Below, piece by piece: positions 52,694 through 61,196 of a stretch of 61,196 nucleotides of DNA; the stretch's first letter is position 1, and each line of letters starts with the position of its first letter. The translations under genes were made by a program, and so were the position numbers. The stretch is from assembly GCF_000429925.1 (NCBI RefSeq), contig NZ_AUCU01000032.1:1-61196 (forward strand), given 5' to 3'. Source of the DNA: Desulfatirhabdium butyrativorans DSM 18734 (GTDB lineage Bacteria; Desulfobacterota; Desulfobacteria; Desulfobacterales; Desulfatirhabdiaceae). The notes beneath the pieces were generated by a model. That model was not told the DNA's origin. It saw nothing but the letters and a program-made list of their open reading frames with translations, and did no database searches.

Positions 52694-55123
52694 ATGGAAT
52701 GGCTGACGGATCAGCAGAAAAATAGCGACGAAAGCACGATCGTCGGGGCTCAAGAGGTGGCAGCCATCCTGAACGCGGTTCCCCAAGCCTTTTTCCTGAT
52801 GAAACCCGATGGTACGATCATCATCGCCAATGATGCGATGGCCAGTCGGCTTCATTTGCCGCTCGAGGCGATTCAGGGAATGGAGGCCTTCGAGCTGGAT
52901 CCGCCGGATATGGCCCGAAACAGGCGGGAAATGGTTCGACTGGTCATGGCAACCGGCCGAGCTGTCACCTTCACGGACGAACGGGACGGCCAGGTCTTCG
53001 AAAACCGCGTCTGCCCGCTGCTGAACCGCGCAGGCGAGGTATCACGGATAGCCTTTCTTTCTTGGGACATCACGCGACAAACTCAACGGGAAAAAGCGCT
53101 CCAGCAAAGCCAGATGCTCTTGAATGAAACCCAGAAACTCACCCATGCCGGCGGGTGGGAATGGGATATGGCAGCCCGAACCATGACCTGGACCGATGAA
53201 ACCTACCGCATCCACGGATATTCGCCCGACCAATACCCCCAGGGCTCAGCCGACCTGATCCAGCATAGCCTCAAGTGCTACGATCCGGAGGACCGACCGG
53301 TGATCGAGGAGGCGTTTCTTCGCTGTGCAGCAGAAGGTCGCCCGTACGATCTGACGGTTCCGTTCACGCAGGCGGATGGCAAGCGCCTGTGGATCCGCAC
53401 CATCGGCATTCCGGTCCGGGACCATGGGAAAATCATCAAAGTTATCGGCAATATTGTCGATATCACCGATCAGAAACAGATGGCCAATGTCCTGCAGGCG
53501 CGGCTGCGCCTGAGTGAAGCCGCCGCAACGATTCCCCTCGAGAAACTGCTCCAAAAATTCCTGGATGAGGCAGAAGTCCTGACGGATAGTTGCACTGGTT
53601 TTTTTCATTTTTTTGATCAGGACAACCAAACAATATCCCTGCAAACCTGGTCGAGCAACACCCTGCAGCTCTGTCAGGCGGATGGAAAAGGACTTCACTA
53701 TCCGTTGGATAAATCCGGCGTTTGGGCCGATTGCATCCGGGAACGTCGGCCAATTGTCCATAACGACTACTCAACGCTTCCGAACCGAAAAGGCCTGCCT
53801 CAGGGCCATGCACCGGTGATCCGCGAACTGGTGGTGCCGATTTTCCGGGAAGGGAGGATTATGGCGGTGTTCGGCGTGGGCAACAAAAGAACAGCTTACG
53901 ACGAGCGGGATGTCGAAGTCATCTCGAAGCTGGGTGACATGGCCTGGGATATCGTGTTGCGCAAGCAGGAGGAAGCGGCGCTGCAGGAAAGCGAAGCCCG
54001 GTTCAGAAAGATTTATGAACACATGGGCATCGGCGTGGCCCGGATTTCCCTGGATTTTCGGATCGAATGCGCAAATGACGCCTATTGCCGGATGCTCGGT
54101 TACCGGGAAGAGGAGCTGATCGGCAAGCACCTGCGCGACATCACCCATCCGGAAGTCATCGCGGAGAATCTTGCCAAACAGCGGCAGCTTGGCGATGGCA
54201 TCATTGACCATTATCGTATGGAGAAACGGTTCATCCACAAAGACGGCCACACGGTGTATGGACTTCTCAACGCCAATTTGATTCGCGATGCGGAAGGCCA
54301 CCCGAGCTATTTTCTGGGAAGCGTCGCCGATATAACGGAGCGCAAGCAGGCAGAAGCCGAAAAGCTGACCCTGGAAATCAAGAACCGGCAACTGCAAAAG
54401 GCCGAAAGCCTGGGACGCATGGCCGGCGCCATTGCCCACCATTTCAACAACCAGCTCTATGTGGTGACGGGAAACCTGGAAATGGCCATTGATGACTCTC
54501 GCAAGGGGATCGCCTCGACCGATTTCCTGGAAGCCGCCCTGCAGGCCGCCCACAGGGCGGCCGATGTGTGCCGGATGATGCTGACCTATCTCGGCCAGAA
54601 ACTCGAACAACATCGACCCATCGACTTGAGCGATACCTGCCGTCAACGTGTCTCTCTGCTGCAGGCCGCTATTCCGCAGAACATTCTTTTCGAAACCGAT
54701 TTTCCGTCCTCAGGCCCCATCATCCGCGCGGATAGCCGCCAGGTTCAACAGGTTCTGCTGAATCTGGTGTCCAACGCCCGGGAATCCATTTCGGAAGATC
54801 AGGGGAAGATTCGCCTCGCTATCCAAATCGTTTCTGCCGAGGACATTCAGGCATCGAAGCGTTTCCCGATCGACTGGCAACCGACGCAACCCGATTATGC
54901 CTGCCTGGAAGTATCGGATACCGGCTGCGGGATTGCCGAAAAAGACATCGAGAAACTCTTCGACCCGTTTTTCACCACGAAATTCATCGGTCGGGGTCTC
55001 GGACTGCCGGTCGTGGGGGGCATCCTGAAGGCCCATGGCGGCGCGATCACCGTGACCAGTGAGCCCGGCAGAGGAACGACGATGCGGGCGTATTTTCCAT
55101 TGATGGTTTCGAACAGCCAGTGA
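52694..55123 (+). CDS. PAS/GAF sensor histidine kinase
   Basis: This 809-aa cytoplasmic sensor kinase has, in order, a PAS domain (about 25-135), a second PAS with PAC (150-265), a GAF domain (275-435, ending GVGNKRTAYDERDVEVISKL), a third PAS with PAC (445-565) and a kinase core. The core has GAIAHHFNNQLYVVTGNLEM (His582), VLLNLVSNARESIS, DTGCGIAEKDIEKLFDPFFT and GRGLGLPVVGGILKAHGG. There is no receiver, so it should signal to a separate response regulator or to the hybrid kinase upstream. ATG at 52694 is chosen; a GTG at 52685 is also in frame. Confidence 0.9.
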   Translation: MEWLTDQQKNSDESTIVGAQEVAAILNAVPQAFFLMKPDGTIIIANDAMASRLHLPLEAIQGMEAFELDPPDMARNRREMVRLVMATGRAVTFTDERDGQVFENRVCPLLNRAGEVSRIAFLSWDITRQTQREKALQQSQMLLNETQKLTHAGGWEWDMAARTMTWTDETYRIHGYSPDQYPQGSADLIQHSLKCYDPEDRPVIEEAFLRCAAEGRPYDLTVPFTQADGKRLWIRTIGIPVRDHGKIIKVIGNIVDITDQKQMANVLQARLRLSEAAATIPLEKLLQKFLDEAEVLTDSCTGFFHFFDQDNQTISLQTWSSNTLQLCQADGKGLHYPLDKSGVWADCIRERRPIVHNDYSTLPNRKGLPQGHAPVIRELVVPIFREGRIMAVFGVGNKRTAYDERDVEVISKLGDMAWDIVLRKQEEAALQESEARFRKIYEHMGIGVARISLDFRIECANDAYCRMLGYREEELIGKHLRDITHPEVIAENLAKQRQLGDGIIDHYRMEKRFIHKDGHTVYGLLNANLIRDAEGHPSYFLGSVADITERKQAEAEKLTLEIKNRQLQKAESLGRMAGAIAHHFNNQLYVVTGNLEMAIDDSRKGIASTDFLEAALQAAHRAADVCRMMLTYLGQKLEQHRPIDLSDTCRQRVSLLQAAIPQNILFETDFPSSGPIIRADSRQVQQVLLNLVSNARESISEDQGKIRLAIQIVSAEDIQASKRFPIDWQPTQPDYACLEVSDTGCGIAEKDIEKLFDPFFTTKFIGRGLGLPVVGGILKAHGGAITVTSEPGRGTTMRAYFPLMVSNSQ

Positions 55124-55135
55124 CCAAGATTTGAA

Positions 55136-56647
55136 ATGCCTTTCATCGTTTTCGATAACGTGAGCACGGTCATTCGAGGTCAAACCGTCCTCAAAGAGAT
55201 TTCCTGGCAAATCGAGCCCCATCAAAATTGGGTGATCGTCGGCCCCAACGGGGCAGGAAAAAGCTCCCTTCTGAAGATCATCCTCGGCAGGCTGTACTAT
55301 CGGGGCCATTTCCGCATGGCGGAAGGCTTGCGAAAACGCACACGTCTGGTCTCCTTTGACCGCCATACGCATTTGATCCGCGGGGAAACCGAACGGGATC
55401 AATCCCGTTATTTCAGCGGCAGACTGGATGAGGGCATCCTCACCCCGGCAGCGCTGATTCACTCATCGGCCGGGACAAAGGGCCATCCGGACAGCGTGCG
55501 GGATATCGTCGCGCTTCTCGATATCGGAAACATCCTCGACAGGGAGATCCGGCAACTTTCCACCGGCGAAATGCGGAAAGTGTTGATCGCCGAAGCCTTG
55601 ATGACGGAACCTGAGCTGCTCATTCTGGATGAGCCTTTCGATGGCATCGACCGAGAATCAGCCCGCTTGCTGATCCGGTTTACCGATCACCTGATCGAAT
55701 CCGGCATCCAGGTAATCCTGGTAACCCATCGGTTTGAAGAGATTCCGTCACGCCTGACGCATGCGCTGTGTCTGCAAAACGGCCGGATCTTCCGGCAAGG
55801 CCCCATCGAAATTCTTCGCAACAAACGCCTCATCACCAAACTCTACCCTGTCCACTCAAAGGCTGTCTCTTTTACGGAAAACACCAGCATACCGGGCAGC
55901 ACCGGGATCGGCGATTCCTTCTCCGCCTTGATCCGAATGAAAAACGTGTGTGTCGCCCACGGTCGGACGAAAATTCTGGATCACATCGACTGGGAAGTTC
56001 ACCCGGGAGAAAACTGGCTGATCTGCGGACCCAACGGCGCCGGGAAATCGACGTTGATCCGGCTGATCACGGCCGATGAGCCCCAGGCTTATGCAAATGA
56101 AATCGAACTGTTCGGGAAAAAACGGGGAACAGGGGAGAGCATCTGGGAGATCAAGCAGAAAATCGGTCTGATTTCATCGGAATTTCAGATCCGGTACCGG
56201 GGAGCCGCCACACCGATGAGCGCGTTCCAGGTGGTTCTATCCGGCTTTTTCGATTCGGTCGGTCTCTACCGAAACGCCTCGTCCGCGCAGCGGCAAATCG
56301 CCGGGCAGTGGCTGCAGCGAATCGGAATGGCCCAATACGGCGAGCGCATCTTTGCGCACCTGTCCTATGGCGAACAGCGCATGATCCTGATCGCCCGGGC
56401 CATGGTCAAATCGCCTGTCCTGCTGATCCTGGATGAACCTTTCGAAGGGCTTGACTACGCCAACCGGCGAATGCTCTTGAACCTGATCGATGACATCGGC
56501 ATCAACACGCCAACCGGCATCATCTATGTAACCCACCGGAAGGACCGGCTCGATTGCATCACCCACCGCTTCGATTTTGTGCCAGACAAAACCGGCGGAT
56601 ACCGGATCGTGCAGCGGCGGAATCGGGGGGAAAGGGATAAGTTTTAA
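55136..56647 (+). CDS. Double ABC ATPase, ModF/PhrA-like
   Basis: This 503-aa protein carries two ABC ATPase domains in one chain. The first has VGPNGAGKSSLLKIILG, LSTGEMRKVLIAEALM and LLILDEPFDGID; the second has CGPNGAGKSTLIRLITA, LSYGEQRMILIARAMV and LLILDEPFEGLD. Segment order and the WLICGPNGAGKST region fit the ModF group, ATPases of uncertain role often near molybdate genes, rather than ABC-F translation factors, whose linker is missing. No permease is encoded nearby. The start is 13 bp after the kinase stop, so it may be co-transcribed. Confidence 0.82.
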   Translation: MPFIVFDNVSTVIRGQTVLKEISWQIEPHQNWVIVGPNGAGKSSLLKIILGRLYYRGHFRMAEGLRKRTRLVSFDRHTHLIRGETERDQSRYFSGRLDEGILTPAALIHSSAGTKGHPDSVRDIVALLDIGNILDREIRQLSTGEMRKVLIAEALMTEPELLILDEPFDGIDRESARLLIRFTDHLIESGIQVILVTHRFEEIPSRLTHALCLQNGRIFRQGPIEILRNKRLITKLYPVHSKAVSFTENTSIPGSTGIGDSFSALIRMKNVCVAHGRTKILDHIDWEVHPGENWLICGPNGAGKSTLIRLITADEPQAYANEIELFGKKRGTGESIWEIKQKIGLISSEFQIRYRGAATPMSAFQVVLSGFFDSVGLYRNASSAQRQIAGQWLQRIGMAQYGERIFAHLSYGEQRMILIARAMVKSPVLLILDEPFEGLDYANRRMLLNLIDDIGINTPTGIIYVTHRKDRLDCITHRFDFVPDKTGGYRIVQRRNRGERDKF

Positions 56648-56710
56648 GTTTTAAGGGTTAAGTTTTAAGGGTTAAGGGTTAAGTTTTAAGGGTTAAGGGG
56701 TGGATGGGAA
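56641..56710. repeat. Heptamer tandem array (TTAAGTT/TTAAGGG), second copy
   Basis: About nine heptamers alternate between TTAAGTT and TTAAGGG and end in ggggtggatgggaacc, as at 16855-16920. The array overlaps the last codons and stop of the ABC ATPase gene. Confidence 0.85.
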
Positions 56711-56988
56711 CCGTTATATGTTGTAGGAGCATCGTTTTCGTCGGCATTTTCATTCCCGGATGCGGCGACACTGCCATGAAGATCAATCGTCAATAAAACA
56801 GTGGGCAGTCTGTAGGGGCGACCGGCCGGTCGCCCCTACGAGTTCCAGCGCAGGCCAACGTTCTGGATTCCGCAAACTCCCTCTCCCGGCGGGGGAAGGT
56901 TGGGGTGGGGGTATAAAAGCGCAAACTGGATTCCTCCCGCCAAAGGCGGGATTTCGCCGCAATGCCGCATAAGCGCTTTTGCAGTTGT
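56711..56988. other. Repeat-filled intergenic region
   Basis: Between the convergent ABC ATPase and glk genes lie a GGGCAGT-type unit (56800-56809), the 28-bp palindrome (56812-56839), a G-rich stretch (56879-56920) and a small inverted repeat (cccgcc/ggcggg, 56937-56950). No gene is visible. Confidence 0.6.
56812..56839. repeat. Perfect 28-bp palindrome (REP-like)
   Basis: The arms gtaggggcgaccgg and ccggtcgcccctac are perfectly complementary with no loop. Repeats of this type are widespread between genes in many GC-rich bacteria. The position between convergent genes would suit a bidirectional transcription stop. Confidence 0.85.
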
Positions 56989-57951
56989 CTAACGATACAG
57001 CATCTGTCTCCCCAAAAACCCAGCCCCCCACAAGCCACTGTCCATGTTGTCCACCAGAAATACCGGAATCTGCGCAAGAAGCCTGCCCATGGTCGGTGAA
57101 TCATGGAATTCCCTTCGAAATGCCTCATGCAACAGGATGCCGGGATTTCTGGCCGCAACCCCGCCTGCGATGTACAGTCCGCCGCTGGCCAGCACATCGA
57201 GGGCAAAATCCCGGCAAACCCTGCCATAGAACCTGGCGGCCCAGGCCAGGGTTTCGGAATCCGGGGCCAGCCCATGCGCGCTCACCTCCTCCGGCGTGGT
57301 CCGCTCACCCGTCAAAAACCAGTGCAGAAAAGAAAGGCCCCTGCCGGAAACGACCAGATTGGCGACAATGTGGCGCTCTCCGCTGTTTTCCTGGTAGAAC
57401 CGATGATAGGCGACCTCCCGGTCCGTCAGAAAAGGGAAATACGCGTGCCCGCCCTCTGAAGGCGCTGCATGAAAACCGCCGCCTGCAAGCGGCACGAGTA
57501 TCGCCTTGCCCAGGGCGGTTCCCGCACCCAGAACGCCGACGGTTCCATCGGAAACGGCTTCACCGGGGAGCATGCATCGGGCCGCGTCGCCGATGGGGGA
57601 CTTGCACGCGTACGCCTGAGCAACAAAATCATTGATCATCACAGCCCGTTGCAGCAAATCCGAAATATCGGGTTTCATCAGGTCGATGTCCCAGTCGATA
57701 TAGGGCGGTGCACAATAACGGCCTTTCTCCACGGGACCGGCTGCCGCAATCACCACCACATCGGCCTGCTCCGGAGCCAGAGGAAATCCGCTGCCCCGCA
57801 ATTGGCTCAGCAATTGGGCGAAGGATTCGGCGGCCTTCGTCGGCAGCCAGGCCTTGTCCTTGAGCTCGAGATTGTCAGGGCCATCGGTTTGGAACCAGGC
57901 AAAGCGGCTATTCGTGCCGCCGATATCCGCTGCAAGAATCGATTTCGTCAT
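56989..57951 (-). CDS. glk: Glucokinase (ROK-independent, Glk type)
   Basis: This 320-aa kinase phosphorylates glucose to glucose 6-phosphate with ATP. The N-terminal ILAADIGGTNSRFAWF binds phosphate, VMINDFVAQAYA holds the catalytic Asp region, VGVLGAGTALGKAIL and PSEGGHAYFPF bind sugar, and GGLYIAGGVAARNPGIL closes the ATP site. This is the E. coli Glk family rather than ROK. The ATG at 57951 is chosen over 58074. The gene follows pgl on the same strand with a 37-bp gap, giving a small operon for glucose entry into the oxidative pentose phosphate or Entner-Doudoroff route. Confidence 0.93.
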   Translation of the reverse strand: MTKSILAADIGGTNSRFAWFQTDGPDNLELKDKAWLPTKAAESFAQLLSQLRGSGFPLAPEQADVVVIAAAGPVEKGRYCAPPYIDWDIDLMKPDISDLLQRAVMINDFVAQAYACKSPIGDAARCMLPGEAVSDGTVGVLGAGTALGKAILVPLAGGGFHAAPSEGGHAYFPFLTDREVAYHRFYQENSGERHIVANLVVSGRGLSFLHWFLTGERTTPEEVSAHGLAPDSETLAWAARFYGRVCRDFALDVLASGGLYIAGGVAARNPGILLHEAFRREFHDSPTMGRLLAQIPVFLVDNMDSGLWGAGFLGRQMLYR

Positions 57952-57988
57952 GGGGCGTCTCCCTTCGATATGCCGAACCTGAAAAGCA

Positions 57989-58798
57989 TCATTCGATGCC
58001 ATTGTGTCTACATGGACAATCCGATTTCCGAGCACGGACGCCGACATCCTCCGCAAGCAACCGATCCGCTGCATCCCGATCGATCATCCATTGCCAATCT
58101 CCGTTCAGCGGTTGGATCATTCCGGCCGGAAACCGGGACGGTTCTTTCCCGTCTCCGAGAACTTCCCCAAGGATTTCCGCCTTGCCGGCTCCGGTTGCGA
58201 CAACCAGGACATGCCGCGCCTCACGGATGAGCGGCAGGCTCATGGTCACGCGAACCGGCGGATATTTCGGTGCGTCCAGCACAGGGACGATCAGACGTTT
58301 CTCTTCCCGAAGCGCCGAATGCCCCGGAAACAAGGAGGCGGTGTGGCCGTCCTGTCCCACGCCGAGCAAAATCAGATCGAATTGGGGAATGATGGCCGGC
58401 GTTTGCGCAAAAACTCCCCGGATGTCCGTTTCATAGCATTTTGCTGCTTCTTCCGGTTCGAGCCACACCGGTACCGGATACACTTGCCCGCTATGAACGG
58501 GCAAGTGATCCAAGAGCATCCGTTTTGCGGCGCCGAAATTGGAATCGGGGCTATCCCATGGCACCAGGCGCTCATCCGCAAAAAAAAACCGCCACATGGA
58601 CCAATCGATCCCGTCCCGGCAGGGCGCACGCAGCAGACCGGAAGCCAGAGACTCCAGGAGCGAACCACCCGATAAGGCAACCGAAAAACGGCCTCCGTTC
58701 CGGCCGGTGTCCCGGGCGAACCGGGTTATGCAAGCCGCCACTTGCAACGCAAGCTGTTGCCGGTCCGGAAAAATTCGGATTTTGGGTTTTCCGCTCAC
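57989..58798 (-). CDS. pgl: 6-phosphogluconolactonase
   Basis: This 269-aa enzyme hydrolyses 6-phosphogluconolactone, the product of glucose-6-phosphate dehydrogenase. Motifs are FSVALSGGSLLESLA, WRFFFADERLVPWDSPDSNF and DLILLGVGQDGHTASLFPGH, all standard for Pgl. The start is taken as GTG at 58798, with aggag 8 bp upstream; no suitable ATG exists at this point and the longer frame to 59146 lacks family similarity. The C terminus carries a basic Cys-containing tail of no known role. It is the first gene of the pgl-glk pair. Confidence 0.92.
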   Translation of the reverse strand: MSGKPKIRIFPDRQQLALQVAACITRFARDTGRNGGRFSVALSGGSLLESLASGLLRAPCRDGIDWSMWRFFFADERLVPWDSPDSNFGAAKRMLLDHLPVHSGQVYPVPVWLEPEEAAKCYETDIRGVFAQTPAIIPQFDLILLGVGQDGHTASLFPGHSALREEKRLIVPVLDAPKYPPVRVTMSLPLIREARHVLVVATGAGKAEILGEVLGDGKEPSRFPAGMIQPLNGDWQWMIDRDAADRLLAEDVGVRARKSDCPCRHNGIE

Positions 58799-59155
58799 AT
58801 CAGTGCTCCTGTTCGATGGATCCAGAAAAGGCGGCGCCCTGCCCTTCAAATCGCCTATGTTCCCGATCTTTGTGACCGGTTGCTCAAGATTTTTCAAGAT
58901 GCTTTTCCATCTCCCATCCAGTCTGTCCGCCTTGCCGGCAAGGCAGCCTGCCAACCGCAATTGGCATTCAACCCGTACGGCAAAATGATTTTCAACAGGA
59001 TTTCGGTCGGTTATCAAACAGATATTCTGGCACCTCTCTTGCTGATTCAACTCGATGGTTGCAAATGCAAATTTCATGGGCATTGACCGCAAGTCTTCGA
59101 AGGTCTTGCCGGCCAGGGCCGAAAATTCAATCACCCCGATCAACAAGGAGGTTTT
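58799..59155. other. Divergent intergenic region pgl/yeiH
   Basis: These 357 bp contain no recognisable gene; short frames in both directions look non-coding. Promoters for pgl-glk (minus) and yeiH (plus) must lie here. No riboswitch-like pattern was recognised. Confidence 0.45.
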
Positions 59156-60592
59156 ATGGCTGAAAAACGATGGTTAACGGAGGACAAGCTCGCACTGATC
59201 ATGGGATTGTTTCTGTTTCTGCTCGGCACGCTGAACTATCTGGGCCTGGATGTGCTGGGCTGGAGTGTGAAAACCAACGTGTGGACCAGCATGGAGAAGA
59301 TACTGTCCCCCGCAACAGGCACCTATAAAAGCCTGAACGGGGTCTTGTCCCTGATTTTCACCTATGTCTTCATCACAGCCTTTCTGGCGATCGGCGTGAA
59401 ATTTCTGGGTGCGGACGTACCCAAATTCATCCGATCCTTCACCGTGGTTTTTTTCATCAGCTATGTCTGCTGGGTGGTAGGCCATTATGCATGGATCGCC
59501 GCCACTCCCGATACCCGAGCCAAATTCCATTTGACCTGGTCGCTGGGTCTGACGGGTGAGGCCGGATTCATCCTGGCGCTTATCGCCGGGATCATCGTCG
59601 GCAATTTCATGCCCGGCATTTCGGAAAAACTCAAGGAAGCCCTGCGTCCGGAAATGTACATCAAGATCGCCATCGTCATCATGGGTGCCGAACTCGGCGT
59701 AAAGTCCGTCGATGCCCTGGGCCTGGCCTCATCGGTCATCTTCCGAGGGCTTTGCGCCATCGTGGAGGCCTATCTGATCTATTGGGCGCTGGTGTATTTC
59801 ATCGCCCGCAAGTATTTCAAATTCAGCAGGGAATGGGCGGCCCCTCTGGCTTCGGGCATATCGATCTGTGGTGTTTCGGCAGCCATCGCCACAGGGGGTG
59901 CGATCCGTTCTCGACCCGTCGTCCCCATTATGGTATCCTCCCTCGTCGTGGTCTTTACCTGTATCGAGATGCTCATTCTGCCTTTCGTGGCCCAGTGGGG
60001 TCTCTCCGGTGAGCCCATGGTGGCAGGCGCCTGGATGGGATTGGCGGTTAAATCGGACGGCGGGGCCATTGCAAGCGGCGCCATAGCGGATGCGCTCATC
60101 CGGGCCAAGGTTCTGGCTGATACCGGTATTCAGTATCAACCCGGCTGGATCACCATGGCCGCCACCACCATCAAGATTTTTATCGATGTATTCATCGGTA
60201 TCTGGGCCTTCGTGCTTGCCATGGTTTGGTGCACCTTCATGGAATGCGCCCCCGGTTCCCGCATGAAATTCAGCGAGGTGCTGGATCGTTTTCCGCGCTT
60301 TGTGCTTGGCTACGTTATCACCTTTCTGGTGATGCTGATCCTGTGCGCAAACGGACCGGAGCTCATCAAACTCGGTAAGGCAACCATCGCCGGAACAGGT
60401 ATCTTCCGGGGCATTTTCTTCGTTCTAACCTTTTTCACGATCGGCATGGTGTCCAACTTCAAGAAGCTCTGGGCCGAGGGGATCGGGAAGCTCGCAGCCG
60501 TATACATCGTCTGCCTGTTCGGCTTCATCATCTGGATCGGGCTCTTTATCTCCTGGCTGTTCTTTCATGGCGTCAAGCCGCCCATTGCGTAG
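59156..60592 (+). CDS. yeiH: YeiH-family putative sulfate exporter (UPF0324)
   Basis: This 478-aa inner-membrane protein has about eleven transmembrane spans. Family marks are AGIIVGNFMPGISEKLKEAL, YIKIAIVIMGAELGVKSVDA, GISICGVSAAIATGGAIRSR and MGLAVKSDGGAIASGAIADA. UPF0324/YeiH proteins are predicted exporters of sulfate or sulfonate-derived anions. This one is longer than the E. coli protein (about 350 aa), with extra N-terminal helices, as is common in sulfate reducers (inference). A strong aaggagg site precedes the ATG. Confidence 0.85.
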   Translation: MAEKRWLTEDKLALIMGLFLFLLGTLNYLGLDVLGWSVKTNVWTSMEKILSPATGTYKSLNGVLSLIFTYVFITAFLAIGVKFLGADVPKFIRSFTVVFFISYVCWVVGHYAWIAATPDTRAKFHLTWSLGLTGEAGFILALIAGIIVGNFMPGISEKLKEALRPEMYIKIAIVIMGAELGVKSVDALGLASSVIFRGLCAIVEAYLIYWALVYFIARKYFKFSREWAAPLASGISICGVSAAIATGGAIRSRPVVPIMVSSLVVVFTCIEMLILPFVAQWGLSGEPMVAGAWMGLAVKSDGGAIASGAIADALIRAKVLADTGIQYQPGWITMAATTIKIFIDVFIGIWAFVLAMVWCTFMECAPGSRMKFSEVLDRFPRFVLGYVITFLVMLILCANGPELIKLGKATIAGTGIFRGIFFVLTFFTIGMVSNFKKLWAEGIGKLAAVYIVCLFGFIIWIGLFISWLFFHGVKPPIA

Positions 60593-60942
60593 CGCTATCT
60601 ATTGAACGGAAGGACCGAGGCAGACTCATCGGAATCCCCCATGCAGCCGGGGCCACACCACGTTGGATGAAAGCCGCCAGCGCGACTTTCGAAGGAATAT
60701 GGCGGTATGACAGCAGCCATACTGCCCACTGCCCACTGCCGACTTTCGTAGGAATCGCCCATGCAGCCGGGGCTACACCCCGTTGGATGAAAGCATCCAG
60801 CGCGAATTTCAAAGAAATATGGCGGTCTTCAGCGGCCATCCTGCCCACTGCCCACTGCCGACTGCCCACTTTCGTAGGAATCCCCCATGCAGCCGGGGCT
60901 GCGCCCCGTTGGATGAAACTTTATCCTGTCGCCTCAGTAAGG
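60593..60942. repeat. Tandem repeats of 120-126 bp (about 2.4 copies)
   Basis: Copies begin at 60631, 60751 and 60877 with ggaatcsccatgcagccggg-type sequence and carry cgttggatgaaagc. The first two copies end in reversed GGGCAGT units (actgcccactgccgac); the third stops after ttggatgaaac. Differences in GGGCAGT unit number explain the change in period from 120 to 126 bp. No protein is convincingly encoded. Confidence 0.85.
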
Positions 60943-60948
60943 TATAAT
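60943..60948 (+). promoter_or_regulatory. TATAAT -10 box at the IS110 left end
   Basis: A consensus TATAAT lies 8-9 bp ahead of the candidate bridge RNA start. The sequence 17 bp upstream (tttatc) is a poor -35. In IS110 elements a strong promoter forms only when the right end, carrying a -35, is joined to the left end in the circular form; the pattern fits that. Confidence 0.6.
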
Positions 60949-60955
60949 GAGCATT

Positions 60956-61100
60956 AGGGGACAACGAACAAAGGACGAAGTCATTCAGGGTTTTCAAGCC
61001 CGGGTAGGAATCTGTTTGTCCCGGTTCCGGCACCTCGATTAGTCGTATCTGAACGTCGCGTAGGAATATCGTATCTTGGCCGGGTATCCGTTGTCCCCAA
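60956..61100 (+). ncRNA. Candidate bridge RNA of an IS110-family element
   Basis: The non-coding left end upstream of the transposase begins, at the expected distance from the TATAAT, with ggggacaacg (60957-60966). This pairs perfectly with cgttgtcccc at 61089-61098 and would close a structured RNA of about 142 nt. IS110 elements encode a bridge RNA in exactly this place, with loops that pair to target and donor DNA. Loop assignment by eye is not possible. Length, position, closing stem and promoter all agree, but this is a prediction. Confidence 0.55.
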
Positions 61101-61135
61101 GCGATTATCCCCTTTCTGGTCCGAGGAGGCAAGCT

Positions 61136-61196
61136 ATGGATACGGCTCATCCAGTGTGTTGTGGTCTGGACGTTCATGAGGCCAGTGTGACCGCAT
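61136..61196 (+). CDS. IS110-family transposase, N terminus only (cut by window end)
   Basis: The 20 codons visible read MDTAHPVCCGLDVHEASVTA, matching the start of IS110-family DEDD recombinases, where the Asp in GLDVH is the first catalytic residue of the RuvC-like domain. A strong ribosome binding site (gaggagg) precedes the ATG. The remaining gene and right end lie outside the window. Confidence 0.8.
   Translation, partial: MDTAHPVCCGLDVHEASVTA

Follow-up and report, generated by a model that had tools for sequence, protein, structure and literature searches.

We consider it highly likely that the window, which is the whole stretch of DNA analysed here (61,196 nucleotides), ends inside an insertion sequence (IS) of the IS110 family whose left end encodes a bridge RNA, and this small RNA very probably directs the element to its landing site. 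The window comprises an entire contig (C18) of a genome in 73 contigs and stops 61 bases into the transposase gene; the 3' end of the contig is inside the IS, and the cut was made by the assembly. Both ends of the element, one linkage between a left and a right end, the guide matches, and the tracking of guides in relatives were read directly. A sequence-only reading had proposed an IS110-family left end with a predicted bridge RNA, and this proposal is supported, chiefly by guide complementarity and by the relatives described below.

The left part of the element, consisting of the left end and the 5' end of the transposase gene, spans 60882-61196 on the plus strand. This left end was found three times in the genome, each time at a contig end (C18, C41, and C54), and the copies agree at every position from 60877 up to the last base of the window, diverge at 60876, and have different flanks. 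It was noted that the earlier placement of the left end at about 60943 held for its presence and not for its start, which is 60882, a boundary as in the relatives. Immediately upstream is the left target half CTTTCGTAGGAAT (60869-60881, plus strand), with the core within GGAAT; copy identity stops leftward at 60876, the loop 1 guide GTAGGAAT matches 60874-60881, and this target half at the same time forms the right edge of the repeat unit that comes last before the element. The terminal 37 nt of the element (60882-60918, plus strand) carry a hairpin, CATGCAGCC to GGATGAAA, and are laid out as in relatives, where for example the left target is followed by CCCATGCCGC, GCGGCACC, and GATGAAAA; from this layout, we take the piece to be a native left-end component of the subfamily. 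The hairpin sits between the element end and a subterminal inverted repeat, GAAACTT (60915-60921, plus strand), which was read from the sequence and pairs with AAGTTTC in the right end. The order of the left end matches that of multi-copy relatives, with GGAAT followed by CCCCCATGCAGCCGGGGCTGCGCCCCGTTGGATGAAAC in this element. An antisense frame of 122 aa (60809-61177, minus strand) spans the left end and the RNA region and is probably due to chance. No similar DNA was found in the plasmid collection, and a 25-nt similarity in locus L005, lying within an HPPK gene, was taken as chance.

To characterize the right end, 146 contig ends were read and 144 clustered, and one cluster of five members proved to be the right end, each copy having a flank of its own. 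The frame in this right end closes with KRAVATLNRLGYQVTLSAAC and is followed by about 110 nt ending in CGGAAGTTTCGTAGGAAT; the five protein fragments are identical. The right flanks begin GATG, GACG, GAGG, AGAC, and GACG. The left flanks read CTTTCGT(A/C)GGAAT in three of three cases and the right flanks GA(C/T/G)G in four of five, with only one left-right pair linked. The end counts are unequal, with three left ends vs five right ends, so that two left ends are unaccounted for, and some short contigs read N and could hold more.

The linked pair was identified through gene order. The right end on contig C22 is adjoined by a gene for a 56-aa protein, and the left end in the window is adjoined by a membrane-protein gene of family PF03601 (59156-60592), presumably of the sulfate-exporter type. 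Among 241 genomes searched, the 56-aa protein was present in six besides its own, and in six of six of these other loci a PF03601-type gene lies directly upstream of it on the same strand. Because of this conserved gene order, a single insertion most likely lies between C18 and C22, and the joined site reads CCCACTTTCGTAGGAAT on the left and GATGATACG on the right. The insertion is site-specific, without target duplication and with a short shared core, as in the IS110 family.

These data bear on where the element begins. A left end starting at about 60919 (TGAAA before the cut, CTTT after it) would mean that the IS inserted three times in the 3' part of a dispersed repeat and that the 37 nt are host repeat. 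A 42-mer, GGAATCCCCC to GGATGAAA (60877-60918), was indeed found once in an uninterrupted repeat (C66), and all three left-end copies sit in it. We nevertheless regard this reading as very improbable, as none of the five right ends, the window-linked one included, is followed by the other half of the repeat, and in multi-copy relatives the shared sequence begins just before the equivalent hairpin. The sequence of the joined C18-C22 site also speaks against insertion at 60919 in the 3' part of the repeat. The boundary at 60919 was rejected, being contradicted by the right flanks and by the boundaries of the relatives, and a recent capture of the 37 nt from a host repeat was discarded as an explanation, given the layout and boundaries of the relatives. 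The element is accordingly described here from 60882.

The transposase start that had been read after the RNA was confirmed: an ATG at 61136 opens a frame that reads MDTAHPVCCGLDVHEASVTA to the contig end (61136-61196, plus strand), and C54 carries this N-terminal frame 8 residues further. A comparison was provided by L182, a contig of a Desulfobacca MAG (lineage Thermodesulfobacteriota) with two IS110 elements in tandem, whose transposases are 408 aa long and both pass PF01548 and PF02371 (the first passes PF01548 with 104.8 bits). The N-terminal and C-terminal fragments match the tips of both proteins, with 61% identity over 28 aa and 37% over 71 aa for the first, and 56% over 27 aa and 42% over 71 aa for the second. 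In Pfam, neither the 28-aa nor the 75-aa fragment reaches a transposase model, and the middle of the gene is unassembled; the 75-aa C-terminal fragment falls after the PF02371 domain in relatives, and an own-genome search for that domain returned nothing above the cut-off. The C-terminal fragment has only distant matches in the class (31-38%), and 37-46% in the phylum, and a first contig scan with this fragment found no relative. Against plasmids it matched 20 records, none of which reached 60% identity and several of which carry an IS110-family annotation.

We then assessed the putative bridge RNA, a 142-nt stretch (60957-61098, plus strand) identified from its arms, fold, and guides. The perfect 10-bp closing arms claimed earlier, GGGGACAACG (60957-60966) and CGTTGTCCCC (61089-61098), are present and span 142 nt. 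Such arms are unusual: when 60943-61135 was shuffled with its dinucleotides preserved, 6 of 5,000 sequences contained a 10-bp inverted repeat with a separation of 100 nt or more. The fold is no more than mildly stable (z -1.82; 11 of 200 shuffles fold equally well), and taken alone it is weak evidence for a bridge RNA. The stem is unchanged among the copies of the IS, but the three copies are identical and this says nothing on its conservation. No Rfam match was found within 55000-61196.

Three of the four guides of a bridge RNA could be matched to target or donor. In loop 1, the 5' guide GTCATTC (60980-60986, plus strand) is the complement of the target top strand GAATGAC, covering the core and right target, and the 3' guide GTAGGAAT (61004-61011, plus strand) has the same sense as the left target. 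In loop 2, the 3' guide CGTAGGAAT (61059-61067, plus strand) has the same sense as the right end, that is, the left donor, which ends in GGAAGTTTCGTAGGAAT. The left halves of target and donor are identical here, and loops 1 and 2 are therefore indistinguishable from this element alone. A partner for the start of the left end, the right-donor guide, was not found in the RNA beyond a complementary AATC and is missing or degenerate. Among 20,000 dinucleotide shuffles of the RNA, CGTAGGAAT occurred in 47, two copies of GTAGGAAT in none, and GTCATTC in 576; all three guide words together occurred in none. The 5' guide of loop 1 is exact for only two of the five right flanks. With GTCATTC at 60980 before GTAGGAAT at 61004, the top-strand match precedes the bottom-strand match.

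The diversity of these guides was further characterized in relatives. A protein scan with the L182 transposases kept 79 distinct loci, whose titles name Bacillota, Chloroflexi, cyanobacteria, and others; L186 (on the same contig as L182), L194, L236, L258, L263, and L264 were left out, and the remaining 73 loci together with this element and the two L182 elements (L182a and L182b) made 76 entries, of which 72 were usable and 44, this element among them, were kept as non-redundant. Relatives in several phyla show the same anatomy. The elements of the multi-copy genomes run from the left target through CCCATGCCGC-loop-GCGGCACC and GATGAAAA, the -10 box, the RNA, and the transposase gene to the right end, which consists of TTTTC plus the guide-matched bases. 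It was noted that the 3' guides behave in relatives as in this element, with loop 1 equal to the left flank and loop 2 to the right end. In Paenibacillus brasilensis, the 3' guides of loops 1 and 2 are AGTATTAGAC and CAGGATAGA. By eye, the corresponding guides are AGGACAG and GTAACAG in the first L182 element and GTAACAG and CAAGACAG in the second, so that two neighbouring elements on one contig have different guides matching their different flanks and ends; the loop 2 guide of G728, also by eye, is CGAAGCAG.

For the loop 1 test, we used 44 elements with a full 330-nt upstream stretch, with L182b added, a set differing from the loop 2 set by one. With test zones picked after viewing this element, L182, and the multi-copy Paenibacillus and Thermoanaerobacter genomes, and with the longest shared words scored irrespective of position (a few clearly lie elsewhere), the loop 1 zone shared at least 8 nt with its own left flank in 36/44 elements vs 10.7% of mismatched pairs, and the loop 2 zone shared at least 8 nt with its own right end in 26/44 vs 14% of mismatched pairs (partner permutation for both loops; 0/20,000 reach the observed mean or count). 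The 5' guide of loop 1 was compared with the core and right flank in 27 elements, giving a mean of 4.48 vs 3.76 (0/20,000 by mean); by count, 4/27 reached at least 6 nt, which was not significant (1,072/20,000 permutations). From these comparisons, the left guide is firmly placed on the 3' side in relatives, and the right guide less firmly on the 5' side.

The relatives also provided a covariance model, as had been suggested for checking the RNA. The model alignment (R1) comprised 27 of 34 RNAs, leaving out L190, L193, L226, L233, L206, L210, and L249, and the aligned RNAs share a fold of 22 predicted pairs, 11 of them with compensatory changes. This model strongly finds 10 of 13 held-out upstream relatives, from 69.6 bits (L249) down to 44.2 bits (L241); L255 reached only E 0.44, and L246 and L252, as well as ISEc21, were missed. 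The RNA of our element was not detected by this check, scoring 2.9 bits (E 3.4; rank 26 of 66 in a scan of 5.2 kb with filters off), and a scan of the whole window gave no match at the RNA position. The miss suggests a diverged member, whose membership rests on guides, boundaries, and order. The model additionally matched sequences downstream of the transposase gene in L134 (1251-1381, minus strand; 40 bits), L136 (1303-1446, minus strand; 33 bits), L138 (1276-1416, minus strand; 22 bits), and L137 (1783-1933, plus strand; 20 bits), in elements that are about 31-34% identical and have TGAAAC ends, while L129 scored 15.8 bits (E 0.022) and L131 gave no match. These downstream matches may reflect a possible relocation of the bridge RNA.

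Two other accounts of the RNA region were weighed. One is that an IS110 end here carries a structured leader that guides nothing, the guide matches being repeats shared by chance between the ends and the leader. The missed model and the weak fold agree with this account; we give it very little credence, as guides track flanks and ends across 44 elements and the three words co-occurred in 0/20,000 shuffles. The other is that the element is a dead relic, immobile and with a decayed RNA, hence the model miss and the lack of a visible right-donor guide. The absent guide and the poor score are as such a relic would show, but the three left ends and the five right-end protein fragments are identical in the parts read, which suggests recent movement and renders a relic unlikely.

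The promoter was examined next to the boundary. The consensus -10 box reported earlier, TATAAT (60943-60948, plus strand), is present as read from the sequence, and a consensus -35 is absent as reported, since the hexamer 17 nt upstream is a poor TTTATC at 60920; a promoter scan reported no plus-strand site. The suggestion that the promoter is completed on circularisation was not upheld. The boundary between 60881 and 60882 lies 61 bp upstream of the -10 box, and a 17-nt spacing puts the -35 at 60920-60925, inside the left end, so the junction cannot supply it at normal spacing. The element thus probably forms no junction promoter. IS621, ISEc11, and ISEc21 form junction promoters (PMC11208160, PMC11208158, PMC11187229).

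We compared the element with known IS110 and IS1111 systems on the basis of published reports. Like the element, IS621 has a DEDD recombinase, a left-end RNA with two internal loops for target and donor, a core inside the guides, and a REP target (PMC11208160, PMC11208158). The two differ in that each IS621 loop places its left guide 5' of its right guide, the reverse of the element (PMC11208158), and in that its promoter is formed at the circle junction whereas the -10 box of the element lies 61 bp inside (PMC11208160); the extra terminal hairpin has no mention for IS621 in the portions of text covered. The seekRNA elements of the IS1111 group, ISEc11 and ISPa11, resemble the element in having the top-strand match 5' of the bottom-strand match, and ISPa11 also targets REP (PMC11187229). 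The subterminal inverted repeat of the IS1111 group is 7-17 bp long (PMC11208160), and the 7 bp of the element are at the lower edge of this range. In contrast, the IS1111 RNA is usually downstream of the transposase gene, with exceptions such as ISMtsp17, and that of the element is upstream; IS1111 transposases have 330-350 aa (PMC11187229), and those of the two L182 relatives 408 aa. ISEc21, of the IS110 group, is like the element in its upstream RNA and absence of target duplication, but has the bottom-strand match first where the element has the top-strand match first (PMC11187229). Automatic matching at one ISEc21 locus gave words of only 5-6 nt, with complementary words both before and after the same-sense word. 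The noncoding parts of our element, 254 nt upstream of the transposase gene and about 110 nt downstream, are as in the IS110 group; the bottom-strand guide 5' of the top-strand guide that marks this group was not found. The guide order is of the IS1111 type, yet the RNA is upstream as in IS110, a mix of which an earlier description is possible.

From these features, a pathway can be proposed. The element would be excised as a circle in which the right end, closing with AAGTTTCGTAGGAAT, is joined to the left end, opening with CCCCCATGC, and the 142-nt RNA would bind the DEDD recombinase. Loop 1 would pair with the target, its 3' guide GTAGGAAT on the left half and its 5' guide GTCATTC on the core and right half; the target would be a REP-like palindrome with CTTTCGT(A/C)GGAAT directly before GACG, with a predicted insertion into CTTTCGTAGGAATGACG. 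Loop 2 would pair with the right end of the element itself (CGTAGGAAT), and strand exchange within the shared core would insert the circle without target duplication. We infer the transcription, protein binding, catalysis, and activity in this pathway from the sequence.

The repeats at 60.6-60.9 kb had been suggested as the target. The left target half CGTAGGAAT does coincide with the right-hand edge of the final repeat unit (60873-60881), whereas the right flank on the other side is not that repeat. The array, on the plus strand, consists of a 63-bp unit (60636-60698) that begins like the IS left end and ends in ACTTTCGAAGGAAT, a 57-bp module (60699-60755) that ends in ACTTTCGTAGGAAT and is without the left-end hairpin, and a 126-bp unit (60756-60881) that begins like the IS left end and ends like the IS right end, with the IS directly 3' of it. 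A survey of about 1.86 Mb of the genome gave 28 copies whose start resembles the left end and directly follows a GGAAT-like core, comprising the three IS copies, seven without right-end-like sequence within 230 nt, and 18 that end in right-end-like sequence 63-148 bp later. These 18 units run into another unit or an IS left end (n = 7), an ATGG module (n = 6), GA (n = 1), or other sequence (n = 4). At C37:18472 (minus strand), a 119-bp unit sits exactly inside a REP palindrome, with TTCCGGCTTTCGCCGGAAT on one side and GACG on the other, equivalent to GGAAT joined to GACG.

Similar arrangements were encountered in other genomes. On L182 (81-664), units of 235, 235, and 114 bp with the same two ends and different interiors are followed by the two IS copies, and the loop 1 guide of each IS equals the right end of the preceding unit; in L191, the IS is followed by a unit of about 64 bp. 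When 75 loci were scanned automatically, possible extra ends were reported for five (L191, L231, L203, L205, and L251); the one in L191 is the short unit, and the one in L231 marks where a second element, equipped with an RNA of its own, begins. The repeats next to the element mostly look like short relatives carrying both IS ends. They could be non-autonomous passengers that depend in trans on the recombinase and bridge RNA, lying head-to-tail since loop 1 would direct each to the right end of the unit before it, a tentative reading to which we assign slightly less than even chances. With the same reserve, the passengers would include units of 63-148 bp here and of about 64, 114, and 235 bp in two other genomes. 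The units with both IS ends, the C37 insertion, L182, and L191 support this reading and are no proof of it. No miniature element derived from IS110 was found in the partly covered literature on IS110/IS1111 and miniature elements, which does not establish an absence; in the portions covered, a Coxiella MITE is described as an IS1111 target (PMC5896051), and for the MITEs in PMC3718332 other IS are named as movers.

The element would add an upstream-RNA subfamily that combines the guide order published for IS1111 with an extra end hairpin, and this subfamily is relevant to the question of how bridge RNAs came to move from one element end to the other. It also offers natural guide-flank pairs from several phyla for the design and testing of bridge recombinases. 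Should the units prove to be passengers, RNA-guided recombination would be tied to a class of REP-like repeats, and some of the REP-like repeats in these genomes would be accounted for by RNA-guided miniature-element arrays.

Further elements were noted among the contig ends of the same genome. By eye, there is likely a second IS110-like element, with six right ends closing in RWLQALKKFGYLPQSA and possibly six matching left ends (C40_3, C47_3, C50_5, C54_3, C68_5, and C72_5, and C10_3, C17_5, C1_3, C24_5, C2_5, and C66_5). Two clusters of 16 contig ends each (including C11_5 and C15_5) are high-copy elements that break the assembly, and the first of them looks, by eye only, like the 3' end of a group II intron.
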